Source: Struthio camelus
Taxonomy: Eukaryota > Chordata > Aves > Struthioniformes > Struthionidae
Direction: 5' to 3'
Assembly (NCBI RefSeq): GCF_040807025.1
Contig: NC_090956.1
Coordinates: forward strand, 6,126,517-6,190,516
DNA: 64,000 nt
Made by a program: the position numbers and the translations under genes. Positions 5,635-61,472 of the stretch are shown here, piece by piece. The notes beneath the pieces were generated by a model that saw only the letters and a program-made list of their open reading frames with translations, had not been told where the DNA came from and searched no databases. Within the stretch, counting starts at the first letter, position 1, and each line of letters opens with the position of its first letter.

Positions 5635-6472
5635 GGAAACTGGTTGTGCTGCCATTCAGACCTCGACAGGCTGGAGAGTTGGGTGGAGAGGAACCTCCTG
5701 AAGTTCCCCAAAGGCAAGTGCAGGGTCCTGCACCTAGGCAGGAATAACCCCATGCACCAGTACAGGTTGGGGTTGACCTGCTGGAAAGCAACTCTGCAGA
5801 GATGGACCTGGGGGAGTCGTGGTGGACAACAAGTTAAACATGAGCCTGCAGTGTGCCCTTGTGGCCAAGGCGGCCAATGGTATCCTGGGGTGCATTAGGA
5901 AGAGTATTGCCAGCAGGTTGAGGGAGGTGATCCTCCCCCTCTCCTCAGCCGTGGGGAGGCCTCACCTGGAGTACTGTGTCCAGTTCTGGGCTCCCCAGTA
6001 CAAGAGAGACATGGCACTACTGGACAGAGTCCAGCAGAGAGCTACGAAGCTGATGAGGAGACTGGAGCATCTCTCCTATGAAGAAAGGCTGAGAGAGCTG
6101 GGCCTCCTGGAGAAAAGAAGACTGAGAGGTGACCTCATCAATGTATACAGTTGTCTGAAGGGAGGATGTGAAGAGGATGGGGCCAGACTGTTCTCCGTGG
6201 TGCCCAGTGACAGGACAAGAAGCAATGGGCAGAAACTGAACCACAGGAAGTTCCATCTGAACATGAGGAAAAACTTCTTTCCTGTGAGGGTGACAGAGCA
6301 CTGGAACAGGTTGTGCAGAGAGGTTGTGGAGTCTCCTTCTCGGGAAATATTCAAAACCCGCCTGGACATGATCCTGGGTAATATGCTCTAGAGGACCCTG
6401 CTTGAGCGGAGGGGTTGGACTAGATGATCTCCAGAGGTCCCTTCCAACCTCAAACATTCTGTGATTCTGTGA
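5635..6472 (+). mobile_element. CR1 LINE, 5'-truncated 3' fragment
   Basis: This is the 3' end of a CR1 non-LTR retrotransposon, the dominant LINE of bird genomes. It contains the C-terminal part of the reverse-transcriptase ORF followed by a short 3' UTR and ends at about 6455-6472 in two ATTCTGTG units, the typical CR1 terminus, with no poly(A). The downstream part of the protein (5819-6391) is open for 190 codons. The preceding part (from about 5640) is in another frame, and the two reading frames meet with a frameshift near 5810-5820, so the copy is dead. Truncation at the 5' end is the usual result of CR1 insertion. Similarity was judged by reading, so the 5' boundary is approximate. Confidence 0.93.
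5819..6391 (+). pseudogene. Remnant of CR1 ORF2 (reverse transcriptase C-terminus)
   Basis: A 190-codon open frame inside the CR1 fragment encodes the C-terminal tail of the CR1 ORF2 polyprotein, downstream of the reverse-transcriptase catalytic motifs. Recognisable stretches are the block around HLEYCVQFW and the terminal block around [10 protein letters not shown] to the stop. The apparent ATG is an internal methionine, not a real start. The upstream ORF2 sequence is in a different frame and the endonuclease and most of the RT are missing, so no functional product is expected. The absence of internal stops over 570 bases suggests a fairly young insertion. Confidence 0.85.
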
Positions 6473-7823: not shown

Positions 7824-10800
7824 ATGGCATTGCGGGTAAGGAACGGGCAGGATCCTGCACAGCCTGATCTGGCTGATGGGTAACAGCTGGGGGCCAGGTG
7901 ATGGATAAAGGAAAGCACACAGGTAAGGGTGAGAAACCCCGAGGAGAGCCAGAAATCCTGAAGCACACAGAGATGCTGCTGATGGTGCTGCCCCTCTGTT
8001 TCAGTAGTCCAGGCTATGTTAAATCCAGTGTGTATCCTGTGTGTTAGGGCTTGGGGTTTTCAAGAAAATGCAACAAGACAGATTTTTTTGCCTCTGGGGC
8101 TGATCTGGAGTAGCACCACTGCCCTGATGGCAGCTCTTCTGGCTGGGGAGGGTTTCAGCTGAGACCAAAATGTGGCCAGTGCTTCAGCAGCAGAGATTTC
8201 TGCCCTTTGCATGTTGAAGCCATCGCTGTTTGTTGCGTATGTGGTGTGTCTTACTGTCCATGTAGGTAAAGCTAGCCCAGGTGCTGGCACCACTACGCGC
8301 TGTTTGAGACCTTATAGGCAGCTCCACCTCCATGTCTCAGAGGGGCAAAAGCAAGTTATTGTTAAAGCCTTTGAATGAATGCATGAGGGTTTCTAAGGCC
8401 ACCTTCCAGAAAGAGCTGGGCACAATGCCACAAGTGATCTTGTCTCAGTTCCTGCCTCCAAAATGTGCATTTCTCAGGGATGCCTTGGAAACAGGAAGCA
8501 GTGACTGAGAAAGGAGACCATAGAGTTAAACTGCTGAGCTCTTAGAGGGACAACCAGGCCTGGAGATGGGAGCGGGAGCTGCCATGGCTGGAGAGAGTTT
8601 CCCAGCATGAACAATAAATTTGGGGGAGGGAGATGCTCAGAAAGGCAAAAATCTAAGAAAGAGATTCTGAAAATTTAAAGAGGAAGATAAAGCTGGGGTT
8701 AAAGAGAGGATGCTAGCAGTGGAGAAAGAGGGCTCTAGCCCCTGGTGTCTGGTTAGAAGAACTATTGCAGAAAACTCTATCCCTAATTTAAACTCTTTGT
8801 CCTAAATCCCAAAAGGAAGCTGGATGGAGATTCTCACATGGTGAAGAGAGTGAGGATCTGATGGGGTGAACCTCTGTCTTAGCTACTTGCCTTGGTTGTC
8901 CCCTACTTGTTGTAGCTAGCGTTATTGTTTGCCCTTGTTTGAAGGAGCTATAAAACATTGCCCTCATCTGAACTGGCTGCGTTTCAGTGACAGCTTTGTA
9001 TGATGTGGGGTTGGGGAGCCTTTGGCAGACAGGTCCTTGATGCCTGTGAAGAAATATGATCCCATTAATGAGGGGAAGGGAATCAGATCATTACAGTGCT
9101 AAAAAGAGGTGGGGTGAAATGACAAGCATTTCTTATTAAAATGAGTTATTTAATAAAGCTATGAATTATTCAAAAAGGAACACTTTCCAACTCATTTTAT
9201 ACAAGTTTAACCTTAGAGATGGAGGGAGACGGTGGAATGGGGGATCAGGCAAGGAGCTCTTGGGAAGCGTCATCTGTGTAACACGGGATGAGGATGTGCC
9301 AGATGCCACATTACGTTCATTCCTCTGATCAATCCCTGCCATTCAAACCCTTCTTCAGAGCATCACAGAGTTTTCTGCTTAGGTCTCTTAGGGTTTTATA
9401 TTGTTCAAATGGGGAGAGAGAGCAGAACTTCTTTGTGTCCTGTCAACAATCAACGTATTCTTTTTTTAATAAGAGCCCTGAATGTCTCTCTAAGTTGATA
9501 CAAAATGAAGGTTTCTTCAACATCCAGTTGATGAAATGGGCTTTGCTGCTGCCCAGGTCTTTTGTGAAGAGCTGGGTGGAATTAGGGAGGAAAAAAAATC
9601 CTGAGAAAGAAGAAAAAACAAAAAGTGCCAAGTTTGTTTGTTTCAGAGTGAGAAAGAGGCAGGCGCAGAGCATGTGTTTGTCTGTGCAGGAAGGGGAGAT
9701 AAAGGGAAAGGCAAAGAGAGGATGAGAAAGATGACTGAGAGGTGACATGGGGATAAAGATGTGTGAGGCAAGGTGGAGGGGAAAGTGGAGCCAGGCACTT
9801 CTCCGTCTGTGTTTCACTGACACGCTCTTCCTTGGCAGTTCGAGGCACTGTACCCCGAGGGGATGTGTCCCGGCTGGAGCGTCATCGTCAAAGGCGAAAC
9901 GAGTTCCAGCACAAGCATGTAAGGGTGCTCTCCACAGCTCTTCTCAGAGCAAGGGGACATCTCACATGGGCCAGTTCCATGGGTCTGAATCATTTATTTC
10001 TCTCATTGTTTTAGGTTTGAAATCAATTTCCTCTGTGATCCCGGAGACCAAATCGCTTTCCATTTTAACCCTCGCTTTGCCAGTTCCAGAATTGTCTGCA
10101 ACTCCTTCCTAGCCAACCACTGGGGGAAGGAAGAAGTTAATAACACCTTCCCCTTTGAAGCGAAGGAGTCATTCCAGGTAACGTGGTGGCACCCAAGGGG
10201 TCTCCACTGGTAGGACAGAAGTGACGCTCTGTCCTCTTCAGTGGACTCAGACCTTTCCTAGATGCCTGGATCTGCTCTCAGTTACAGGGCTGTCATTCAG
10301 GAATATCTCTACAGGTTTCTGGGGCAAAACTGCCATCCTTAGCACTAAGGGCCACTGCTTGGAGAAAAGAGCTGCAGCCCCTTCTCTCCCTAGCTCACTG
10401 CATCTCTGGGCCCAGATCAGCAGGGGTACAGATGGGTATAAACTTGTGCTCTCTGAACATGAGAGTCACCCTGCTAAAATCACGGTCGTTCTCACAGGTC
10501 TAACCCTGCCATTCCAACTAGTACCATACCCGGTAACCTCCCCTCTCTGGCTGTCTGAGAAGATCCCTGTCAGCAATTCTTTTGTCCCCTGTTTTGGTGC
10601 TGATTTCTGCATAATTCTGGTGCAGACATGCAGAGCTCTAGCAATAGTTCCTTGGCCCTGAATTTGTTTTCAGTCTAGGTTTTGTAGTTTCTGCTAGCAC
10701 TAAGCAAAGAACTTAATTACTTCTTCATTTGGCCCAGAAGGGTGACCAGTACATGTATCCATTCTGGCAGGATTTGAAGCTGGCTGTAGATGTGCTTGCC

Positions 10801-11052
10801 CAAATTTGAGAGCTCACTGAAACAAGAGCAGCAAGGTCCAGTGAGGACATAAGTCTTCACCTGGCAACCCTAACACAGTCTCTCTTTCAGGTCGAAATCT
10901 ACTCTGACCAGGACTATTTCCATATTTTCATTGATGAAAACAAAATCTTGCAGTATAAGCATCGGCAGAAGAATCTTTCGTCCATCACCAAACTGCAGAT
11001 TCTGAATGATATTGCCATTTCTTCAGTGGAAATCACCAATCGGGGCCTTTAG
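7824..11052 (+). CDS. GRIFIN: GRIFIN, galectin-related inter-fiber lens protein (4 exons)
   Basis: Lens galectin of 138 residues, assembled from 7824-7835, 9839-9918, 10015-10177 and 10891-11052. Exon 1 encodes only Met-Ala-Leu-Arg and ends at a GTAAGG donor. Every later junction keeps frame (phase 0, 2, 0) with GT-AG sites, and exon 2 has the 80-base size usual for galectins. The product is a single carbohydrate-recognition domain. In the galectin sugar-site signature it keeps His47, Asn49, Arg51, Val58, Asn60, Trp67 and Glu70, while Val72 stands where most galectins have Arg. There is no signal peptide, as expected for galectins. Mammalian GRIFIN is known as a lens fibre-cell protein without normal lactose binding; the chicken protein is reported to bind lactose. 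The start has strong context (G at -3, G at +4). The sequence agrees closely with chicken GRIFIN as I remember it. Confidence 0.95.
7836..9838 (+). other. GRIFIN intron 1
   Basis: Intron of about 2.0 kb separating the 12-nt first coding segment from exon 2, with a GTAAGG donor and a pyrimidine-rich acceptor ending TTGGCAG. A 145-codon open frame (9288-9725) inside it is Lys/Arg/Phe-rich, has no domain resemblance and is regarded as chance. The intron also holds an A/G-rich stretch at about 9575-9630. Confidence 0.85.
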
Positions 11053-22879: not shown

Positions 22880-23040
22880 TCCCGTCCTGCCCGAGGCCTG
22901 CCCGGCCCTGCCCCATCCTGCCTGGGTCCCTGCCCGGTCCTGCCTGGTCCCTGCCTGGTCCTTGTCTGGTTCTTGTCTGGTCCTGCCCTGTCCCTGCCCT
23001 GTCCCTGCCCTGTCCCGGCCCGGTCCCTGCCCGGCCGCGG
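22880..23040 (+). repeat. C-rich minisatellite (about 11-12 bp unit)
   Basis: Degenerate tandem copies of a unit like CCTGCCCTGTC, clearest at about 22978-23020, where CCTGCCCTGTC repeats nearly exactly. The repeat produces long open frames on both strands with biased composition; these are not genes. Confidence 0.85.
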
Positions 23041-23130
23041 GCGGAGCTGTCCCTTCAGCACCACCGCCGGGGCGGCCGGGCACCGCCGGTGCCGGCCACA
23101 CTGCCCACCGGGAGCCCGGGAGAGTTAGCC

Positions 23131-23290
23131 CGGCACGGCTCGGCTCGGCACGGCTCGGCTCGGCACGGCTCGGCTCGGCGTGGGCCGGAAGAGCCCGGCA
23201 TAGCTCAGCCCGGCCCAACCTGGCACGGCCCAGCACGGCACAGCCTGGCACGGCAGAGCCCGACCCGGCCCGGGACAAGACAGCACGGGC
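23131..23290 (+). repeat. 15-bp tandem repeat, unit CGGCACGGCTCGGCT, with degenerate tail
   Basis: Three perfect 15-base copies occupy 23131-23175. They are followed by about 115 bases of degenerate five-base-based relatives (GGCAC, GGCTC, GGCCC). Both strands stay open in several frames, giving Arg/Pro/Ala-rich shadow ORFs. Confidence 0.85.
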
Positions 23291-23340
23291 AGGGACCAGG
23301 CACAGCCAGCGCTCCCAGAGGCTAGGGAAGAGGTCCTGAG

Positions 23341-23850
23341 TGGGGGGGGGGTGCGGCCAAGGGGGTTCGTGTGGGTGTGCAAAGGGGGTGCTTGTGCAGA
23401 GATTGCCTGGGGGGGTGCGGGTGGGGGGGGGAGAATGTGCAAATGAGGGTTGTGCTTGCATGTACGGGGAGGGTGTGTGCAAGGAGTTCCGTGTGGCTGT
23501 GCAAAGGAGGTGGGTGGGCAGGGGTGGAGGTGTGCAGAGTGTGTGTGCAAAGGGAGGTTGTGCGTGCATGTTCCGGGGAGGAGTGCAAGGCACCTGCAGA
23601 AAAGTGTGTACAAAGAGGTGCTTGCGAGATACTCTGTGGGTGTTGGGGGGGGGGGTCTGTAAACGTGGTGTATGCGCAGAGGGAGGGGTGTGTATGTGCA
23701 GGGGTCGGGTCTGTAAAGGGTCTGCATGCCCTGTGTGTGAAGGGTTGTGGGGGGTGGTTTGCAGGACGGGTCTGTAACGGGACTGTGCGTGCATCGGGCT
23801 GTGCGCGCACCGGGCTGTGCGTGCAGGGCTCCGTGCACTGCCGGGGTCGG
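23341..23850 (+). repeat. G-rich degenerate minisatellite with long G-runs
   Basis: Irregular repeats built around GTGTGCAAAGG and TTGTGCTTGCATG-like words, separated by runs of 5 to 12 G (for example at 23341-23350, 23422-23431 and 23645-23655). The strand asymmetry is extreme, with G rather than C on the plus strand. Several neighbouring G-tracts could form G-quadruplexes. It lies 0.3-0.8 kb upstream of the predicted first exon of the receptor gene. Confidence 0.75.
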
Positions 23851-24000
23851 GGTGGGGGGTTACGGGGGGTGGGGGGTGCGCGGAGCTCTGTGTGTGCAGC
23901 GGAGCGTGTGCCGGGTTTGTGCGGGGTGCCGGGGCCGTGCAGGTGGCAGCCGAGCGAGTGCAGGGTGGGAGAGCGGCGCCGCGGGTGCGGGTGCGGGTGC

Positions 24001-24002
<2 letters not shown>

Positions 24003-24046
<44 letters not shown>

Positions 24047-24089
24047 GCGTGTGTGTGTGTGTGCGTGTGTGTGTGTGCGTGCGCGCGCG
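24003..24089 (+). repeat. GT/GC microsatellite
   Basis: About 38 bases of uninterrupted GT are followed by GT repeats interrupted by GC, ending in GCGCGCGC. Alternating purine-pyrimidine sequence of this type can adopt Z-DNA. It lies immediately upstream of the predicted receptor first exon. Confidence 0.95.
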
Positions 24090-24540
24090 GCAGCGGGTCC
24101 TGCGCTGCCGGCACACGGCAGAGCCGCCGGCAGTGCCGCCCGCGGGAGGAGCTCGGCCGCGCTGCCCGCCCTCCGCCCGGTGAGTGCCGCCGCGGGCAGG
24201 GGCCGGGGAAGGGGTCGGGGAGGGGGCTGCAGCCGGGGCCGCCCCGGGCAGGGGTGCCGGCAGCCCGCCACGGGGGCGCGCAACTTTCGCCGGAGGGAAG
24301 CGGGGACGCGGCGCAGCAGTTCGGGGCTGCCCTCGGAAAGGGTTGGGGCGGGGGGGAAGGGGCCACGGCCCCTCTTTCCCTTCCCCATCCCAAAAGCACC
24401 ACCTGCCCCGACCGGGCAGGGAGCTCCGGCCGACCCCCGGGGAGCCCTGGCCACTGCCGGTGCCGGTGCCCGCGGGGGGCCGAGCCGGGCTCCCCATTCT
24501 GCCCTCCCCAGGCGCTCCCAGCCGCGGTTTAACTAAGTGA
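24090..24540 (+). promoter_or_regulatory. CpG island with predicted non-coding first exon of the receptor gene
   Basis: This stretch is very GC- and CpG-rich and contains a perfect splice donor, GTGAGT, starting at 24180. The matching acceptor is the pyrimidine tract ending TTTTCCAG at 24632-24639, just before the receptor coding exon, so I predict a non-coding exon ending at 24179 and a 460-base intron (24180-24639). No TATA box was seen; a CpG-island promoter near 24090-24170 is inferred. Confidence 0.6.
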
Positions 24541-24661
24541 GTTGCCGAGAAGCCGTTTCCGACACGGCGCCTTCCCCGAGAAAGGAAAATATTGACAGGA
24601 GCCCACTCTGATCCCTTCTCTGCTCACCCTCTTTTCCAGGCTTGGCTGGTTCCAGCTGAAC

Positions 24662-24706
24662 ATGCCAGGATCGCTGAGCGCAGCCCGGCAGGCACTGCCG
24701 CGTTAG
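24662..24706 (+). CDS. Upstream ORF in receptor 5' UTR (14 codons)
   Basis: An ATG with A at -3 opens a 14-codon frame that stops at TAG, 27 bases before the receptor start codon, inside the same predicted exon. Because the upstream start has good context, it could reduce or regulate translation of the receptor. It is out of frame with the receptor. That it is translated is inference. Confidence 0.4.
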   Translation: MPGSLSAARQALPR

Positions 24707-24733
24707 CCCGGCGGCGCCTGGCGAGGCTCAGCC

Positions 24734-26062
24734 ATGAATTCCTCCCTCCCCACCCCGCGGGTCTCCTACAGCCTGTTGCAGCTCTGGCAGGAGGAGAACC
24801 AGACCCAAGGCAGGCTCTGGAATGGGAGCCAGGAGCTGGGATGGGAAGAGCTGGAGAAGATGCTCTTCCTCTTTGCAAAGGAGCCCATTACCATCAGCCT
24901 CACTGCAATGTACCTGGTGTCCTTTGTGGTGGGCTTGGTGGGCAACGTCATGTCCATCAGGGTGCTCACCCGGAAGCGTCGGAGCCGGGTGTCCAGTCTG
25001 AGTGCCACCCGCAGCCTTTTGATCAACCTGGCGGTATGTGACCTCATGGTGGTGTGCATCTGTATGCCCATCACTGTGGGCAACCTCATCTACAAAGCCC
25101 GGGTCTATGGGGACTTCCTGTGCCGGGCAGTGCCCTTCATCCAAGCTGTCTCAGTCTCTGCCAGCGTCCTCAGCCTGACAGTCATCAGTGTGAACCGTTA
25201 CTACAGTGTGCACAACCCGCTCAATGCCCGATCTTTCTTCACCCAGCGGAGGATCCTCAGCACCATCCTGGTGGTGTGGTTGCTGTCCTCTGGGATATGC
25301 ATGCCCCTCATTTTCATGAACAGAAGGGAAGAGATTGGGGTGGTGGAGGGCTTGCCCCTGGTGTTCCCCATCTGCAGGGAAATTTGGCCTCAGGAGAGGC
25401 TCAAGCAAGCTTACAACTTTCTGCTCTTCTGTGCTCTCTACTGCTTGCCCGTCCTCTTCAACATGGTCATCTGCTTCCTCACAGTGCGCCGACTGTGGAG
25501 CCGCAGCAGCCAGCTGAAAGAGAGCAGTGCCTTGAATCGGTCTCTGCCAGTCTCCAGGCTGAAGATTCGGAGGAAGGTAGCCCAGATGGTCATTGCCCTG
25601 GTCCTGCTGTTTGCAATCTCCTGGCTGCCCGTCTACCTGATGGACATCTGGATTGACTTCAACATCCCCAAGACTTTGCAGGATGTATCTCCTTCTCCCT
25701 GGATCCTGCAGCTCAGACCTTTTGCCCAATGGCTTGGCCTCACCAATTCCAGCCTCAACCCTATATGCTATTGCTTTGTTGGGAACCTCTACAGGTCAGC
25801 CAAGGAAATGAAGAGCAAATACCACCAAAGGATGGTTTCTCTCTTTAACTTCTCTCTGTCCGAAGGGACATCCCGCTCCTCAGTCCCAGAGCTGCTCTCT
25901 TACCGGAGTTCAATGGAGCCTGAAGAGAAAGGACACGTCACCACCCCTGCAATGGGCAGGAGATTTCCAGGGGAATGTGACAGTAAGAACAAGCATGGAA
26001 GCTTCAATTCCTGCCAGCATCCACCTCCGAGCACTGTCTCTAGTGAGAACACTTCCTTATAA
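24734..26062 (+). CDS. Class A (rhodopsin-like) peptide-type GPCR, unassigned
   Basis: A 442-residue seven-helix receptor in one exon. Helices lie near residues 52-78, 94-118, 127-158, 173-196, 226-252, 281-305 and 326-349. Class A landmarks are present: GNV (70-72), LAxxD (99-103), Cys130 and Cys214 for the extracellular disulfide, WLP (297-299) in helix 6 and NPxxY (342-346) in helix 7. Helix 3 ends Asn-Arg-Tyr instead of Asp-Arg-Tyr. The extracellular N-terminus has N-glycosylation sites at Asn2, Asn22 and Asn30 and no obvious signal peptide. The C-tail is Ser-rich, without an obvious palmitoyl cysteine after helix 8. Helices 2-5 read most like the peptide receptors of the orexin, cholecystokinin, RFamide and neuropeptide FF group, but I cannot assign ligand or symbol. 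The start follows an acceptor and has G at -3. Confidence 0.93.
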   Translation: MNSSLPTPRVSYSLLQLWQEENQTQGRLWNGSQELGWEELEKMLFLFAKEPITISLTAMYLVSFVVGLVGNVMSIRVLTRKRRSRVSSLSATRSLLINLAVCDLMVVCICMPITVGNLIYKARVYGDFLCRAVPFIQAVSVSASVLSLTVISVNRYYSVHNPLNARSFFTQRRILSTILVVWLLSSGICMPLIFMNRREEIGVVEGLPLVFPICREIWPQERLKQAYNFLLFCALYCLPVLFNMVICFLTVRRLWSRSSQLKESSALNRSLPVSRLKIRRKVAQMVIALVLLFAISWLPVYLMDIWIDFNIPKTLQDVSPSPWILQLRPFAQWLGLTNSSLNPICYCFVGNLYRSAKEMKSKYHQRMVSLFNFSLSEGTSRSSVPELLSYRSSMEPEEKGHVTTPAMGRRFPGECDSKNKHGSFNSCQHPPPSTVSSENTSL

Positions 26063-26530
26063 TTCTGTTCAGGAAGGGCCTCTCATGCCATCATCTGCAT
26101 TTCATAACTTTTTAGATGTCTTTCTGAACCACATATTTTAATTACGGAGAAAATCTTACTTCTAATTGCTTCCACCACCAGTTCAAAAACACAGAGACAG
26201 GGGAAAACAAGAAGGAAAAATACTGAGAAAAATATGACATATTTTAACTCACATCAAGTTTTAAGACAAATGATTTCTACTGGGGACAGCTAGATATAAC
26301 CTGTTGCCCTGTCAACACTCACATAATTAGATAGATAAACATCCCCAAAATGGTCTCCCCCCTGCAGCTCCATCTCTGAATGCTACAGCAAGAGATGCAA
26401 TTTGGATACAGCAGTGATTTGACTGCTTGCTGCTGTTCACCCTGTGCTGATAAAGTCCGGCTGGAACAGGCACTCTCTGCTGCAAATACATCAATTGCAG
26501 TTGCAAGCAATAAAGGAATGCTAGGAACAT
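26063..26530 (+). other. Receptor gene 3' UTR (probable)
   Basis: The non-coding DNA after the stop reaches the first AATAAA at 26509-26514. A second hexamer lies at 26641-26646. The sequence turns AT-rich immediately after the coding region, in contrast to the GC-rich coding exon. The true 3' end is not determined. Confidence 0.5.
26509..26514 (+). terminator. Candidate polyadenylation signal of the receptor gene
   Basis: AATAAA, about 450 bases beyond the stop codon. An alternative hexamer lies 132 bases further on (26641-26646). Confidence 0.45.
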
Positions 26531-45200: not shown

Positions 45201-46079
45201 CACACACGAACCAGAATGAAACCACAGCAAGTTCTGCGGAAACATGTCTGCCCAACGATTTGCTCTCACACAGGTTTTCTTTTTGAAGGATTGCAACTTG
45301 GAGGTGGGTCCTGCAGGGCACTGCGTTAGGATCACGGATCCTGCGGCTCTGGCAATGTCACCTCAGGTTTTATGGAGCTGGAGCCGCCCCCCTGCCCATC
45401 GCTGGCAGGAAGTGCTCAGCAGATCATACACACAAGCTCTGCAGGAGCAGAGGCCTCTGTGTTCATACAGCAGCTGGCAAAAGAGGTTTCTAGTCCACCA
45501 CTAGATGCAATACAATATAAGCAAGAAGAAAAACATCGTGGCAGTCAGAGCCTGCAATAACATCTCCATTCATCTACGTACTCTAAAAATACCAATTCAT
45601 TCACAACGTCGGAGACCTTCATCCAGAAACCCCCACTGGGTACCTCCATCTTTTAGCTGCTCACCTGGATTTATGTCAAAGTGCATGAATCCGTTTGAAT
45701 CACATCTCAGCACACCATGGCGAGGCTTTGCAGCACCTCTGGTGCAACCTGCGTGTGTGACGCTTGGCACAACTGCCATGTCTCCAGGTGCAGTGAGATT
45801 CAGGATGCTCCATGGTGCGGGGCACCTTGAGCTTCTCCAGTGTGCTTCTTGCAAACACCATCCTTGGTCCAGAGAGCCAAAAGGCAGCGGCACCCATCAC
45901 GGAGAACCTGGGGAAACGCTGCTCCTGTCCCACCTCCTCATTGGAGATTTCTGGGCCCTCAGCTTGACTTGATGCTATGAGGGTAGAGCAGCTCCGTTCA
46001 GGTTGCGCTGGCCACATTAATCAGCGTCCCCATACTGCTGAGGACACTGATATAAAGAGAAACACCAAGGCCTGGGCAG

Positions 46080-46960
46080 GGAGAGGACAGCGCTTCGCCG
46101 TCACCGCTCTGCTTGCCTTGCGAGCCACGCCAGGCAGCCTGCCTGGGCACAGAGACGACCTCCAGCCGAGCCGCACACCGCTCCTCCACCCAACAGCAAA
46201 GCTCCCCGGAGACACGCGCGGACCTCCCCTGGGACGCCGGAAACCCTCCTCTTCCCCCCAGGATCAGTGTCTCTCGTTTACCTCGCTCAAACCCAGGGGA
46301 AACTCGCTGCCAATTTCACATTACCTGTGTGGACTGGGCTGAGGGAAAAGCGGATGCGCAGAGAGTCCCGCGGTGCCTGCAAGCACGGCGCTAAATCAGC
46401 CGCGCTCCTGCCCTGGGCTGCTTTCAGCGCGCGCTGCGCGGGGCAGCGGTGGGGCCGGCCGGGCGGTGGAAAAGCAGCTGCCCGAACGGCCAGAAACGCC
46501 CTTTCCTCAGCTCCTTGCCTTCACCGTTCCCTGCTGGCAAGTCCCGTTTTCCTGTTCCACAGTAATCGGCCCGTCGAAGCGAAGCATGGGCTGAGCGCTC
46601 TCACCTTGCACAACGTTGTCAACCGTTTCTGTCCTCCCTGGCAAAAGCTCCTCCTGCCGCAGCTGGGGAACGTCGCCCACCGCGCTTCGCCTTCACCCAC
46701 CCGCAGAAACTTCCCCTCACAAGCTGCTTTTCTCCCCCTCTTCTAGCCCTCCGGATGTCCGGGTCTCACCTCGGCCTCTCTGGATCCTTTGCACAGCTTT
46801 AGCCCCTTTGCTAAGGGGCCTCGCGGCGCTTTAAAGCGCGCACACTTTCTGCTCGTTTTACAGCGCTCCGCTTTGCTGGGAGCGCCTACGGGTGAGGCCG
46901 TGCCTCGCTCCAAGGGAAGCCCGACCAGACAAACAGCACCCCAAATCCCCCGTCGAGGAG
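46080..46960. promoter_or_regulatory. CpG-rich block, candidate promoter of unknown transcript
   Basis: CpG dinucleotides and GC content rise sharply over about 850 bases, with a peak at about 46370-46480 (GCGCGC words and GGGGCCGG-type Sp-factor sites). In vertebrates most such islands mark promoters, yet the nearest recognised genes are about 20 kb left and 13 kb right. Overlapping open frames on several frames (up to 159 codons) are what stop-poor GC-rich DNA gives by chance, and none resembles a known family. It could start a long non-coding RNA, an alternative CHST12 exon or an unrecognised gene. Confidence 0.4.
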
Positions 46961-48924
46961 GGGAGGTCAGGGCATGCCGTGCCTGCGGCTTTCCCAGAGC
47001 AGGAGACCCGGCAGCAGATGGCTCAGGACACGTCCCGGGTCACGCATGTGCCCGGTGGAGCCGTTTCATCCTAGGCAAAGGTATCCGAGAGCGAGGCCAT
47101 GCCAACTCCAGGGCTTGGCAAGCAGAGGGGAAAATGTGTTTAAAAAATATAGCTTCTGAGCACGGTCTCTGTCTGGAATCTGCCTGCAAAACAACTCAAA
47201 TTTCTCAAAGGGATTCATTATTCAAAACGCCTGGCTGAATAATTTCTGTGAGTAATTGCAGGTCTGAAGTTTGTCCGCAAACAATTCATTAGGAGCATCC
47301 AGGCGGCCAGCTGTAACCGCGCTCTGGCTTCAGTCTGTGCTCCCTGGCTGCGTGGGGAAAACCCCAGAGCCGGGCAAGAAGGGTAAATAAACTTGTTTAC
47401 AAAATCAAGACCTTGGGGGGGAAAAAAAAAAACCCTAGAGAAATTATATTAGGTTAAAATTAGCTGTTTGCATGGACATTTTGGGATATAACTGTGGCTG
47501 AAACCATCTGGGAGAGAGAAGCGAGTGCTGGGTGACGGGCCTTGGCTCCCGTGTGCCCACACGTGGTGCGGGGCTCCGTCCCCAGCGGCCAGCGTCACCC
47601 TAGGGGGGCTACAAAACCGCCCGGACACGGGGCAGGGGGAAGAGCAGAGACGGGGATGGAGGAGCTGCCTCCACCAGCCCGCTGTGGAGGGCCCCGAACA
47701 TCACGTAGAGGAGCGTCGCAGAGCCGTTGTCCCCAGAAAACGTCCCCGAGAAGCACTGACGATTCGGATGCATGTTTGGAGAGGGAGCAGAGACCGACTG
47801 GAAGCATTTCCACAGTTCAGGGCTCTGAGAGTGCACAGGAGCACTGGGCTGAGTACCAAAGTCATCACTCAGACTGTTTCCTGCTGAAATCATGAAATAA
47901 TAGATGTCCAATTAACTGGGAAAGCAAGATGCAAAGAGAAATATTGCTTACAGAGAGCTGGCACAGTGCCAACTGAGTTATAATAAGAATACTTTATTTG
48001 CCTGGGCTTTAGATAACGTATTTCTGTTCTCTCTCTCACTGCCCTTGGGGCTACTGAGAATTTATCAGCTTCTTGGAATAACTTTTCTCTTCCAGTTTCT
48101 CTAAAGCCCTCTCCCAGCTCCACCAGCTCAAATATAACCCTTAACGCTCTTAGACTAAACTCTGCCCTAATAACTGGTGTTAAAGACCAGAGTATCTAAC
48201 ACACTCAAACTGCACACAAGGCTCTTCAAAAGGTGCCTCCGTGGGGAGCAGGGAAGGAGAACAGGGGCTACTCTCCTCCACCCTTTGAACAAGGCAGAGC
48301 AGGCAAAGTTAAAGCCGGCATAGGAAAAAAGTAGGGGAAAAAAGTAGGAAAAAAATTACTGAGGGGGGAAAAAAGCCTGCCTAAGCAGCACTGAAGTTTC
48401 CCACGTCATAATAAAACCAATCGGGTACCAAAAGGACTAGAAAAACGTTAACTTACCAGTGACTTGCCTGGGAAGTTATTAAAGCCCAGGAAACATCCCA
48501 GGCAGTTAAACATTTGTTCAGCACTCAGCAGCTAACACAAGACACATATCAGACAACCTTGAAAAACAGCACGTACGAAAGGCTCTAACTGCAGCGTACC
48601 AAACTATTAGATGCGCGTGGTTTACATTACGCATAACTAGCATCAGCCAAAACCTCTGTATAAGACGTCCAGGAAAAAATCAAGAGGCAGCAGGCTTTTA
48701 CTGGGTCAGTACCTCCTTACAGGCCCTGCAGCGGGAACCTGGTTGCTTAACTTGCCATATAACCACAGCCAAAGGTAGTAAATAACTTAAATCATTTACT
48801 TGCTGCAGCCATGAACCCAAACTGCACTTTCAAGATTTCTGCCTATCTGCCTGGCCCAAGAACTTTTCCGAATCCTTAGAAACAAGTTTGTAGGTTGTAA
48901 CCTGTGGAAAATCGGAGGCATCAA

Positions 48925-54645: not shown

Positions 54646-55549
54646 GGAGGACACAGGCTGCCTGCAGGCGTATTAAGCATTGACATTTTTCAGAGTTCAA
54701 GGATTTGGTCTGGCCCTGCTGGGAGAAGGAACAAGGGGAACTGTTGGGACCAGCCACAGCTAGATCACGCAGCAGCTCGGCGGGCTGGGCACGCGTCCAC
54801 AGCAGAAGTCCTGGGCTTGGCGCATCTGTACCTGCAGCAGCTTCTGCAAGGGAAGCTCCTGCAGCCCCTCAATGCACCACGTGGGCTTCAGTCTCTGACC
54901 ACATCCGTGGCACCCTATCAGCACCCTGCTCTCCTCAGGATCCCAAAAGCAACGACACAACAGCTGAAAACTCAAAGGGAAAAGTCGGGAAGAAATAATC
55001 TAAGATACAAGTGGGGGAGCGACGGTGCCTGCACAGCCCGCTCACCTGCCCCAGTCTGACCGAGTCGCACTGGGGAACCAGGGCAGTCCTGCAGGCGTTA
55101 TTCTGTTAGCACCTATAGATTATTTTTAAAATATCTCTTTTCATATGGCCTTTTCAGAGGCTTTGGCATTCCTGTGACAGGAATTCAATTTTTAATCTCA
55201 CAGAACAGTTTACAAAGAAACAAAAAGCCTACAGAGAGGTGATTGCTTTCCATTGAACATTAGGGCAGCTTTCTCAAGGGGTTTCTGGGGCCCCAAGGGC
55301 CAGGTCTGCTCCTGAATTCCTGCTCGCTTCAGAGTGAGACTCCGCATCCCTGCACCTGGTGACAGCAAATGACACAGAGACCTGTCACCGTCCCTCTGCT
55401 GATACCACTCCAGAAGCGAGGAAGTGACACCTTCAGATGCAGCAACTGTGTTTTTGGAGTGCTGTGGAGCAAGGAGGACCCCGTTTCCAGGTTTTATTCC
55501 AGGCGGGAGCATGCACAAAGCCACAGCCAGAAGGGCTGATAGCAGGTTT

Positions 55550-56000
55550 TGCTTGTGCCTCGCTTGGCCGTTTCTCGGGGCTCGCCGGCACGGCAGCGGG
55601 AGAGCCGGCTCTGCTGCCCCGAGTCCATCAGCCCTGGCGGTGCGGGGAACTGCCACCACCGGGTGACACGAGAGACTGAGCTGCCCGACCCAGGGGGAGC
55701 AGCGAGCCCGGCTGGGAAGAGCCGGTGCCGCTCGTCAGAGCCTGAGAACAGCAAACGGCTTTCAGACGGACCACCACGGAGCTGCCGCGCGGCGCTGGCT
55801 CCCCGCTGCTGCGGCCCCAGCGCTGCGCACAGACCCGGCACCTGCAGCGAGAGGCTCGGCCCCGAGCCCCCCGCCACCGTCCCGGGCCGGGCACTGCCCG
55901 CCAGCACAGCCCTCCAGCCCACCGTGCACGGGGACCGCTCTGCTGGCACAGCCGAAGGCTTGCCAGCGCCCACAAGGGCAAACTTCAACCTCCAAAGCAC
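55550..56000. promoter_or_regulatory. Second CpG-rich block in the gene-poor interval
   Basis: About 450 bases of high GC and CpG (for example around 55795-55890), followed by AT-richer DNA. It lies about 5.5 kb beyond the CHST12 leader exon on the 3' side of that gene, so it is not in the usual place for the CHST12 promoter. No family-like reading frame was recognised in it. It could be a promoter of an unannotated RNA or simply GC-rich intergenic DNA. Confidence 0.3.
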
Positions 56001-59000
56001 GTCCCGGGTTTGATTTAATCAAGGAGAGGTTGCACGAGCTGCATGACCCCTGCTCCGGCCTCAGCCGTGACCTGCCCTCCCCTTTTCTTCCCGAAACAGC
56101 CCGCTATCAGTGACTTTAGTAAATTCTGCCCCACTCCCCATTTTCTTTTTTCTTCCAGAGAATTTCCTAGCAAGAGCAACATGGTCAATCCTTTAAATTT
56201 GAGTGACACAACTTGCCCGTTAAGTCCCCGCACAGCCCACCCTCCCTGGCACTGTTTTGCACCGCAGCCACACACGGCTCTGCCAAGTCACCGGCTTTCC
56301 CGCGGACCGCGGCGAGGTCCGGCTTACATAAGAGGGAACAAACTCCCTTTTCTTCCCCACCCTTTCAATGCTGCCATTCATCCCTGCCTACCATCCTTCC
56401 AGTGCCACCTTGAGAGATTCAACACGCACAGCCAAAACACTTCATCTCACACGTTTTCCCAGGGCAGCTCGTAGCCGGGTACGTTGTCCGCAGGTAATGG
56501 GGCTGCAACGTTGTCCTCCTAACTTGTGAGTGACTTAAAAGGTTAAAGCAAAAGCTGTCGAGACGCAAAGGCACCCACGCGTAATGGACGCTCTGCGTCC
56601 TGGCAGGGCCACGTCGCTCCTCAGAAAGCAAAGGGCTGCGAGCCCTTCCCCGAGCATGCAAGCAAGGCAGGTAGTCGCTGCAGGGCCAGGCCGCGTGCGT
56701 CGTGCCACGGCAGTGAATACAGCATCGTACAGCACGGGACTGACCCTGCAGAAGGGCTGCACGAAGGCTTTGGCTCGGATGCTGAGCAAGCACTATGGCT
56801 GGTCTCAGCTCGACCTGGCTCAAAACATCTTGGTCAAACCCCAGGTTATTTTTGCATCTGCGCCATCTGTTCTGCCTGGTTAAAGACACTGTGCTGACTT
56901 TGGGCAAGTGGTCATCACTGGGGAAAAGAAAGTTAGGAGAGGAACAGGACATAATTTTGCAGGCTGAGCATGAAACAACAAAGCCAGGTTTATGCAGACG
57001 TGAACAGGCCATTTCAAGGCATTTTTCCTGTCCTCTGTAAAATCAGTACTAGCATCATAACCATCTAAACTCCAGGACTTTCAGGCTTCTTTTGACTTCT
57101 GTCCAGTATGGATGCATACTGCCTGGCCTTGCTAATCATTCTGCCACTATTTTTCAAATACTGAATTCCAGTTCCTTCAGGAAACAGGGGGGAGGGAGCC
57201 GTGGCTGGTTTTGAGCTCTTTGTCCTTCTCTCTCCCCCACACACTCGCATATCATGAGAACAGAGCAAGAAACCCACAAAAAATGCACATTCCCAAAGCC
57301 GGAGGCTCTGTCCCAGTTCTGGCAGCACAGTGGTCCTACCACAACCCAGTCGCCTTTGACTTCCTAACAATACGCTCACAGCGGTGGAAGGGCGGGGAGA
57401 AGGCTTCAAAGGAAAAGAGCAGCAAGGAACAAGCTATTTTGAACCTAGAAGCCGTTCACTGCAGAGGGAACCCTCCGTATCCGAGCCATATCGCTCCTCC
57501 CCACCAGCGTCCCCAAGAGCGGCAACGGGAGACGTGGCAAGAGCTAGCAGCACCAGGGCTTCGGTCAAATGGTCAAACCGATCAAACGGCTTAACCGCCA
57601 ACGCAGCCTGGACTTCGCAGGGGGAGAGCGCGGAAGACTGAGTCCCCTCGGACTCACGGCATCCTTGCATCTTCCTGCCTGCAGGCACTTGATGAAGCGC
57701 TAGTATCACCCAGAGCTTGCAGGTAGCTTGCTGAGCCTTGCCCACAGGGCGCTGCAGAGCTCAGGGCAACACAGGGTGGCATTAGCACACAACGCTGGCA
57801 TTTACCCTAGAGCTGCCCTTTAACTAGCTTTTGTGGGGAGGGAGAAGAGGAATCAGTGCACAGTCTCCCCTCTCTGGCTGAGGTTTGCAAGTAAAGGGAG
57901 AATTTTTCTCCTATCACTGTTAAAACACAAGGCAGCTATATAGCTGTTAAAACACAGGATACGCTCTCCTGTCACACACAGCAGCTGCCGTGCAACATTT
58001 GCAGCCATTTTACGTGTTCTCTGCCGATTGCACAACCAGGACGCTGCTGCCGCCGAAGACAATGGTTTAGAAGGATAACACCCTGCAACCAATTTTCTCC
58101 AACCAGAATGACTTATATCCCACTGGCAACCTTGAAAACACGCTCCTGCCTTGCGACCATCACAAGAACGCTCTGCCTGGGACAAGCCACAGCCATCAAT
58201 CACAGGACTGGGGGTGTGGATGTGGGCACAAGGGCCTGTTCGCAAGGCGAGTGTAGTGGGGGGACCTGGGCAGAGGATTGATCAGAGGGGCAGGGAGATG
58301 CAGCCAGGGCAGGACTCGATCAGCAGGTGGGGGGGAAGCAGCTGCAAGGAAATTTTCACAGCTCCGACTACGTTGTCTTTGGCAACGCATCTGCACTATG
58401 TTCCTAGCTGTTCACGTCTGCAAATACTAAGCACCAATTAGATTCACGCTAAACAAAAAACAAAAAAACACATTGCAAAGACAACAGATGAAAACATCCA
58501 TGCTATAACTGTGAAGAGCAGGATGAACCCACCCTCAGGAAATGTAAACGTAACAGGAACCAAGAGACTCCTGGGATTACCAATTACAGAAGACAAGATT
58601 CTCAACATCTTTCTGTTTTGCAGCAATTAGCTAGTAACGAGAAAAAAAAAAACCCTGAACAGATCAACACTCTTCTATTATTAGTTTTAAATAATGACTC
58701 AGAAACAGGAACTTCCTTTTTCCCCAAGCTGCAAAGAGCCAAGCACTGAGAACCTGATCATGGCTTCAGGCTGATTCAAACTGCAAGCATCTCTGCAGAA
58801 AGTACAGGAGAGAGGCGTGAATACGATGAGAAACAGATCCTTTGCTTCTAGCATAACTACTAGCTATTACCTTTAAATTGTAGGTAAGAAGTGTGATACA
58901 GGGTATTCACTAGGAGGAGCAGGCAATGCAAAGAGTCACATGTACACACAGACAGGAGCAAGGAGAGAGGAAAAGCCATGCCGGCCGATGGACTCGGAAA

Positions 59001-60212: not shown

Positions 60213-61472
60213 TTAATCTTTAAGCAAATTTTCTGGCTTGGGATAGCCAAACAGCACAAAATCTGCTTCGTAAAGCTTGTAGAGCTGTCGTCTCCAAGCC
60301 AGCGGGATTTTGGCAAACCAGTCATCCTCCCAGCTGCTGGCAGTCCTGTTCCGGTAGCTGGGGGGGAAGCGAAGCAGCCTGTCCACTTTGAGGAGCTGCA
60401 ACAGATGAGCAGCATCCTCATCCAGCGTCTCCAGCTTCCCAATAAAGTCATAGTCTATTTGGCACGGGTGGCACAGCCGGTAAACCTGCCTCCAGTGCTC
60501 ATTGAAGGGGGCCATCTTCTCTGTCCGGGGGTCCAGTAAGTACTGGATGAAGTCAGAAAAGGAGACTTTGAGGCCTGCCCCGAAGGCCTCACTGACTGAG
60601 GTGGGGAGGTTGGTATGGTTGGAGTAGAGCTTTAGCATAGGAATGGCAAAACGCCGGTAGAACTCCTCATTCTCCAGCTCAAATTTGCTGCGAAAGGCAG
60701 ATATAAGGCGGACAAAGGGGTCCCGTACAAAGAGAAACTTAGTGTACTTCTTCAGCTTGATCTTCATGAGGTGCCGGGAGAACTTCCCATAGCGGCGCCA
60801 GAATTTGTTAAAAGTCAGGTGGGTGCTGGTATTGTGGACATGTTCCCGCGGGATATCCAGAGGGTCCCGGTATGGGACCCCCTGGTCCAGCAGGCTCTCA
60901 CTTAGCACAATCATCACTCGTTTCCAGTTGGTGCAGGCCACCTTGGGGACATAACAGTAGATGATGCCGTGGCGGTCGTCCACGATGAGGTGGTTGAGTT
61001 CGTAGTTGGGGATGTCATCAAAGGAGCGCTCCTTGGTGGGGAAGGTAAAGCTGGAATTGGCACAAAACTCCCGCAGCGTTCTCTGCCTCTCTACCTGCAG
61101 TTTTTCTTGGTCCAAGCTGGCTCTGGCGTCGCGTGTAGACCAGTCATAGCCTCGCACATTCTCCTCCAAATTGCTTGCCGCAGGCTTGCTGGAGCCCTGG
61201 AGGAGTGGCTGCTCTGTCTTTTTGCTGATAGAGCTGTTCTGTTTCAGGCTCGAACTAAGCAGCTTTGCCAAAAATTCATCCACATCTGGCAAGGCTTCCC
61301 AGTCTGCACCCTCAGCGATACCAGGGATGGCCCCTGGGGAGTGAGGCCTGGAGAAGGACGTATGCAGGTAGAAGTGAGCTGTTCCCACGTTGTCCCAGTA
61401 CACGATGATCAGGAGGATCATGAAGATGGAGATCAGCACCACAGAGAGACGGAGGAGCCGTGCTTTGGTCAT
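60213..61472 (-). CDS. CHST12: Carbohydrate sulfotransferase 12 (chondroitin/dermatan 4-O-sulfotransferase 2)
   Basis: Golgi type II membrane enzyme that transfers sulfate from PAPS to the 4-position of N-acetylgalactosamine in chondroitin and desulfated dermatan. The frame encodes 419 residues; human CHST12 has 414 and matches along its length by recognition. A short cytoplasmic start (MTKARLLR) is followed by a membrane anchor at about residues 9-25, a variable stem to about 105, then the sulfotransferase domain. The 5'-phosphosulfate loop is PKVACTNWKR (176-185) and the 3'-phosphate site is FVRDPFVRLIS (248-258). Asn139, Asn214, Asn285 and Asn375 are potential N-glycosylation sites. The whole protein lies in one exon, as in mammals. 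The start has A at -3. Gene order next to GRIFIN agrees with mammals, except for the receptor gene in between. Confidence 0.98.
   Translation of the reverse strand: MTKARLLRLSVVLISIFMILLIIVYWDNVGTAHFYLHTSFSRPHSPGAIPGIAEGADWEALPDVDEFLAKLLSSSLKQNSSISKKTEQPLLQGSSKPAASNLEENVRGYDWSTRDARASLDQEKLQVERQRTLREFCANSSFTFPTKERSFDDIPNYELNHLIVDDRHGIIYCYVPKVACTNWKRVMIVLSESLLDQGVPYRDPLDIPREHVHNTSTHLTFNKFWRRYGKFSRHLMKIKLKKYTKFLFVRDPFVRLISAFRSKFELENEEFYRRFAIPMLKLYSNHTNLPTSVSEAFGAGLKVSFSDFIQYLLDPRTEKMAPFNEHWRQVYRLCHPCQIDYDFIGKLETLDEDAAHLLQLLKVDRLLRFPPSYRNRTASSWEDDWFAKIPLAWRRQLYKLYEADFVLFGYPKPENLLKD

Follow-up and report, generated by a model that had tools for sequence, protein, structure and literature searches.

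An intact neuropeptide-type class A receptor gene between GRIFIN and CHST12 in Struthio camelus, carrying the pocket residues of RF/RY-amide receptors

The window analyzed here, i.e., the whole stretch of 64,000 nucleotides of Struthio camelus DNA, contains an intact class A G-protein-coupled receptor (GPCR) gene, the presence of which is confirmed (Table 1). GRIFIN and CHST12 were found at its flanks on opposite strands, in agreement with the placement given in an earlier note on this DNA. The tblastn matches of GRIFIN, searched with a hand-entered chicken sequence, lie at 9827-10180 and 10837-11037 (+), and the two exon stretches are approximately 94% identical to that query by a count made by eye. 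Human CHST12, also hand-entered, is matched at 60216-61472 (-) with 78% identity over 414 residues; a hand-entered human LFNG sequence gave no tblastn match in the window at E up to 1. The human genome is not known to hold a receptor gene between CHST12 and GRIFIN, and no paper on a receptor beside GRIFIN or CHST12 was found among the open-licence PubMed Central papers listed.

Table 1. Features located in the window, with positions counted from its first letter.
Feature	Position	Strand	Evidence or remark
GRIFIN, part of exons	9827..11037	+	tblastn with hand-entered chicken GRIFIN; Gal-bind_lectin in two exons
CpG island, probable promoter	23501..24800		5' side of receptor
Possible 5' UTR intron	24180..24639	+	donor GTGAGT at 24180, acceptor AG ending at 24639; consensus matches alone
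Class A (rhodopsin-type) GPCR CDS, 442 codons and stop	24734..26062	+	ORF; 7tm_1; PDB orexin receptor 1 match; pocket set 8/8
Possible poly(A) signal	26509..26514	+	first AATAAA past the stop codon; pattern match
CHST12 coding exon	60213..61472	-	tblastn with hand-entered human CHST12; Sulfotransfer_2, E 1.5e-73

The CpG island was defined on 500-base windows with GC > 0.55 and CpG o/e > 0.65. Judging by the splice-site and AATAAA pattern matches, the receptor gene may begin with an exon free of coding sequence and have a short 3' UTR; eight more AATAAA/ATTAAA motifs follow the first one, up to 28.5 kb. A short upstream ORF of 14 codons (24662-24706, ATG to TAG) lies in the receptor frame within the proposed second exon and could lower translation of the receptor. 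Adjoining the proposed promoter, GC-rich tandem arrays with units of 5-43 bases occupy 22886-24081 together with a GT repeat at 24003-24081. Two more stretches resembling CpG islands lie on the way from the receptor to CHST12, at 46001-47300 and 55301-56900, and may be promoters of genes that are non-coding or were missed; the one ORF tested in each had no Pfam match. In a spot check among the 126 stop-to-stop ORFs of at least 100 amino acids, eight other ORFs of the window (seven at 27.7-57.6 kb) had no Pfam match, and Rfam at its gathering threshold returned zero matches in the window. The ORF at 5777-6391, which resembles the end of an avian CR1 retrotransposon reverse transcriptase, had no Pfam match.

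The open reading frame of the receptor runs from ATG to TAA over 442 amino acids with zero internal stops and an intron-free coding part, whereas the longest ATG ORF in 300 dinucleotide-preserving shuffles of 24434-26362 had a mean of 115 and a maximum of 238 codons. Its third codon positions are GC-rich (GC of 0.485/0.420/0.738 at positions 1/2/3). The class A signature is present over the full model, as Pfam 7tm_1 (PF00001) matches with E 9.3e-43 across profile positions 1-260 of 260. A hydropathy scan shows a peak for each of TM1-TM6; the seventh helix stays below the cut-off chosen, and TM7 was located by alignment on NPICY. Alignment identifies the conserved N1.50, D2.50, R3.50, W4.50, P5.50, W6.48, P6.50 and N7.49-P7.50-Y7.53, along with C3.25 and the ECL2 cysteine as the disulfide pair, and N-terminal sequons are present at residues 2, 22 and 30. 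The ORF, the shuffles and the full-length 7tm_1 match confirm the intact 442-codon class A receptor of the earlier note; its mention of all structural landmarks is slightly overstated, since NRY replaces D/ERY at the end of TM3. As D/ERY is widespread in class A without being strictly required, this replacement leaves class A membership intact. The protein had no NCBIfam match, and tblastn against viral_contigs and genome_contigs returned zero relatives, as expected for a vertebrate gene. A single-sequence AlphaFold2 model (mean pLDDT 42.9, pTM 0.27) was too poor for a fold search.

The distance of the receptor from known families was assessed with phmmer against PDB chains, which matched 432 distinct sequences (E threshold 1e-10), orexin receptor 1 being on top (128 bits); the best 60 of these 432 begin with orexin receptors, followed by galanin receptor 1, NPFF receptor 1, CCK-B, kisspeptin and others. 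A similar ranking was given by a panel of 29 human receptors, the sequences of which were entered by hand, and which was later widened by twelve to 41. The hand-entered sequences of the first 29 were checked: 32 of 32 residue numbers from structural papers fit NPFFR2, PrRPR, QRFPR and NPY2R, and panel scores agree within 0.5 bit with those of the best PDB chains for GALR1, CCKBR, KISS1R, NPFFR2, QRFPR, CCKAR, PRLHR, GALR2 and NPY2R. The gaps are larger for NPFFR1 (5 bits) and the orexin receptors (8-9 bits), for which the PDB constructs are cut or engineered.

The best panel score of the receptor is 120 bits, against 255-628 bits in four defined within-family pairs, and 24 of the 29 human receptors score higher than this 120 bits with their best partner from another family. 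The orexin receptors reach 117-120 bits with it and about 626 with each other; the CCK receptors reach 99-110 bits, CCKBR being fifth of the panel at 110, and about 403 with each other; KISS1R reaches 106 bits, and up to 190 with its own best panel partners. Within-family similarity to orexin, CCK or kisspeptin receptors is thus absent. Rinne et al. 2019 (PMC6504862) report, over 189 aligned positions, that amphibian-to-mouse identity exceeds 90% for HCRTR2 and that GALR1 is one of the few receptors >80% across species; the identity of the receptor to HCRTR2 and GALR1 is 26-28%. Since the scores are of the between-family kind and the receptor forms a lone long branch in the trees described below, it is, as judged from its sequence, no ortholog of any of the 41 human receptors compared. 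The impression that it is not a recognized subtype is therefore upheld for these families, and a subtype of a known receptor is rejected for the 41. This exclusion is incomplete, because human orphans such as GPR165, GPR148, GPR151 and GPR176 lie outside both the panel and the PDB list. In addition, NPY1R and NPY2R, both NPY receptors, score only 166 bits with each other, so an old split within one ligand family can resemble a between-family score, with the 120 bits of the receptor lower still. A kisspeptin receptor lost in birds was also considered as a candidate and rejected on its 106 bits and on F5.38 and A6.59 in KISS1R versus Y and D here; a term search of the bird Kiss paper PMC4015844 gave no LFNG, GRIFIN or CHST12 in the text searched.

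Two trees were built, the first with 26 human receptors (GPR150, GPR139 and GPR22 dropped from the 29) and the second with 23 (ADRB2, UTS2R and GPR19 dropped too), and in both the receptor is a lone long branch without a supported position. Neither of the outcomes that the earlier note names as refuting was seen, within the scope of these comparisons with human receptors. None of the nine finished AU tests rejected a sister group (p 0.078 to 0.565), including NPFFR1/2 (p 0.349) and QRFPR (p 0.362). One clade of the receptor with the RF/RY-amide and orexin receptors gave p 0.088; that group left out TACR1, GPR83 and PROKR2, which the free tree places among NPY/PrRP receptors, and part of the cost of the constraint is therefore not the receptor's doing.

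An orphan clade fitting this description is already in print. The portion of Rinne et al. (PMC6504862) dealing with orphan clades lists GPR195 near CCKAR/CCKBR in fishes (8), coelacanth (2) and sauropsids (6), with no human ortholog. GPR195 (for example ENSLOCP00000021858) is thereby described as a clade of peptide type with sauropsid members, in the CCK/galanin/kisspeptin neighbourhood; the receptor is of peptide type and of that neighbourhood too, comes from a bird and has no ortholog among the 41 human receptors compared. The same account gives sauropsid members for the GPR165/Pgr15l, GPR194 and GPR209 clades, and the relatives of GPR165/Pgr15l, GPR83L, GPR194 and GPR209 in our panel score low with the receptor (GPR83 69, TACR1 75, PROKR2 85 and UTS2R 47 bits). 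We consider it rather probable that the receptor is GPR195, matched by description alone and not by sequence. Because this description, as far as seen in that account, fits, the gene has probably been listed before, and the suggestion of a receptor of unknown kind is not borne out; nor is a bird- or reptile-specific origin supported, given the fish and coelacanth members listed there. Since GPR195 stands near the CCK receptors in print, the trees, the pocket reading given below or the name may be wrong. What is new is an intact bird gene for a probably catalogued but unstudied orphan, its locus beside GRIFIN and its RF/RY-amide pocket; neither this pocket nor this position was found for the gene among the open-licence PubMed Central papers listed, one of which contains the name GPR195.

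In the passages on ligand recognition in PMC12069643, PMC11369081 and PMC11148045, the C-terminal amide of RF- and RY-amides is held by C2.57, T2.61, Q3.32 and H/Q7.39, the ligand arginine by E45.52, Y5.38 and D/E6.59, and the aromatic ring by V3.36 and other hydrophobic residues. The weight of 6.59 varies in these accounts, its mutation in QRFPR being almost without effect, and T5.39 is named there as a further arginine contact, which is variable and is A in PrRPR and KISS1R. Eight positions were scored in an alignment of the receptor with the 41 human receptors; the set omits 5.39 as well as 5.42, 6.51 and 6.52, ring positions that vary. All eight are present in the receptor, comprising four of four amide-binding and three of three arginine-binding residues (E/D at 45.52); at 7.39 it shares Gln with QRFPR. 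The full set occurs in seven of seven RF/RY-amide receptors (NPFFR1, NPFFR2, QRFPR, PRLHR, NPY1R, NPY2R and NPY4R) and in none of the 34 others, of which HCRTR2 holds seven positions, KISS1R and HCRTR1 six, GALR1 five, CCKBR four and the remaining 29 three or fewer. KISS1R is placed with the others despite its RF-amide ligand because its recognition mode differs in the published description; counted as a member, it lowers the tally to seven of eight. The product of the column frequencies over the 23 non-members of a 30-row panel is 6e-5, which assumes independent columns, and these are not independent. As the positions and allowed letters were settled once the residues of the receptor had been seen, the pocket test is not blind.

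Over 33 self-chosen pocket positions in 21 receptors, NPFFR1 (17), NPFFR2 (16), NPY2R (15) and QRFPR (13) lead, followed by both orexin receptors at 12, equal to PRLHR, and CCKBR at 11, equal to NPY1R. NPFFR1 and NPFFR2 further share PFAxWL and NSSxNPI in TM7 with the receptor; however, they are 26% identical to it by BLASTP and differ at 7.39 (H, here Q), 5.39 (T, here N), 6.52 (W, here Y) and 3.33 (G, here A). QRFPR shares P3.29, yet it is also 26% identical, scores 100 bits and has E6.59, T5.39 and I7.40. Asn at 5.39, where NPFFR1/2, QRFPR and NPY1R have T, means that the T5.39 contact is absent. The best whole-sequence match is orexin receptor 1 and not an RF/RY-amide receptor, which counts against an RF/RY-amide reading; the ligand of orexin receptor 2, the holder of seven of the eight residues, is not an RF/RY-amide, and shared ancestry can keep pocket residues without the ligand.

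The eight pocket residues lead us to expect an amidated ligand with Arg-aromatic at its end, with about even odds for an RF/RY-amide. The earlier grouping as orexin/CCK/RFamide-like is right as a neighbourhood, which the pocket sharpens toward RF/RY-amide; the trees do not resolve the grouping itself. We propose, with a probability of approximately 0.5, that the gene encodes a neuropeptide-type receptor from an orphan lineage that is old among vertebrates and has no human ortholog, likeliest GPR195, working by an RF/RY-amide mechanism. A peptide with an amidated C-terminal Arg-Phe or Arg-Tyr would insert this end into the helical bundle of the receptor, which we suppose to be expressed. The amide would be held by C2.57, T2.61, Q3.32 and Q7.39 and the arginine by E45.52, Y5.38, D6.59 and perhaps an extra D6.55, with V3.36 flanking the aromatic ring. 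TM3 and W6.48 would then move, opening the G-protein side. Class A receptors that lose the acid at 3.49 often show higher basal activity; N3.49 deprives R3.50 of its usual acidic partner and may have the same effect here.

Among the alternatives, a relative of the CCK/gastrin receptors that binds a CCK-type peptide or another amidated ligand without RF, and in which the RF/RY-like residues are an ancestral carry-over, is unlikely. It draws on the printed position of GPR195 near CCKAR/CCKBR in the pertinent part of PMC6504862. The CCKBR score noted above and the AU test, in which grouping with CCKAR and CCKBR is not rejected (p 0.547, the constrained tree being 0.71 log units better), favour it too. 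However, CCKAR and CCKBR hold two and four of the eight positions, with M3.32 and A6.59, and their R6.58 and N6.55, which are ligand contacts in CCK receptors, are replaced by I and D here.

Improbable as well is an orexin-type or other amidated-peptide lineage, the ligand of which would have no penultimate arginine, so that E45.52, Y5.38 and D6.59 would serve another basic group. The orexin receptors are the best whole-sequence matches, hold seven and six of the eight positions, share Q3.32, P3.29 and E45.52, and are not rejected by the AU test as a clade with the receptor (p 0.565, constrained tree 1.12 log units better). Their 27% identity and between-family scores oppose this, as do K6.58, R6.59 and Y6.48 where the receptor has I, D and W, the charge at 6.59 being reversed.

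Very unlikely is a gene under relaxed constraint or in early decay, signalling no longer normally, with NRY as the first mark. N3.49, at a site that is D or E in 41 of the 41 human receptors, could mark relaxed constraint, and a single genome is the basis. Against it stand the uninterrupted 442 codons with their GC-rich third positions, the disulfide pair and NPxxY, as well as the full pocket set and the CpG island.

Going further than the proposed RF/RY-amide mechanism, the receptor might belong to an unrecognized vertebrate RF-/RY-amide system, retained by birds along with other non-mammals and absent from mammals through loss, its ligand still unpaired and an acid-less NRY giving basal activity; we regard this as doubtful. 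Luqin is an invertebrate-type RF/RY-amide system described as thought lost in chordates. Descent from such a system is unsupported, a hand-entered Drosophila RYamide (luqin-type) receptor being outside the 11 best non-self matches of the receptor in a 31-sequence panel. Receptors missing from humans are easily overlooked because naming mostly follows human orthologs, and a prediction of the ligand class reduces such an orphan to a short peptide list for one assay. GnIH is an RF-amide described as first purified from quail brain, and such RF-amides act on reproduction in birds. If true, the proposed RF/RY-amide mechanism would add a pathway to bird neuroendocrinology and could reveal a receptor-ligand pair lost in mammals.

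Two further traits of the protein may be useful marks of orthologs. In the alignment to the PDB match, its ICL1 is four residues longer than that of the orexin receptors, and its Asp at 6.55 occurs in none of the 21 receptors compared.
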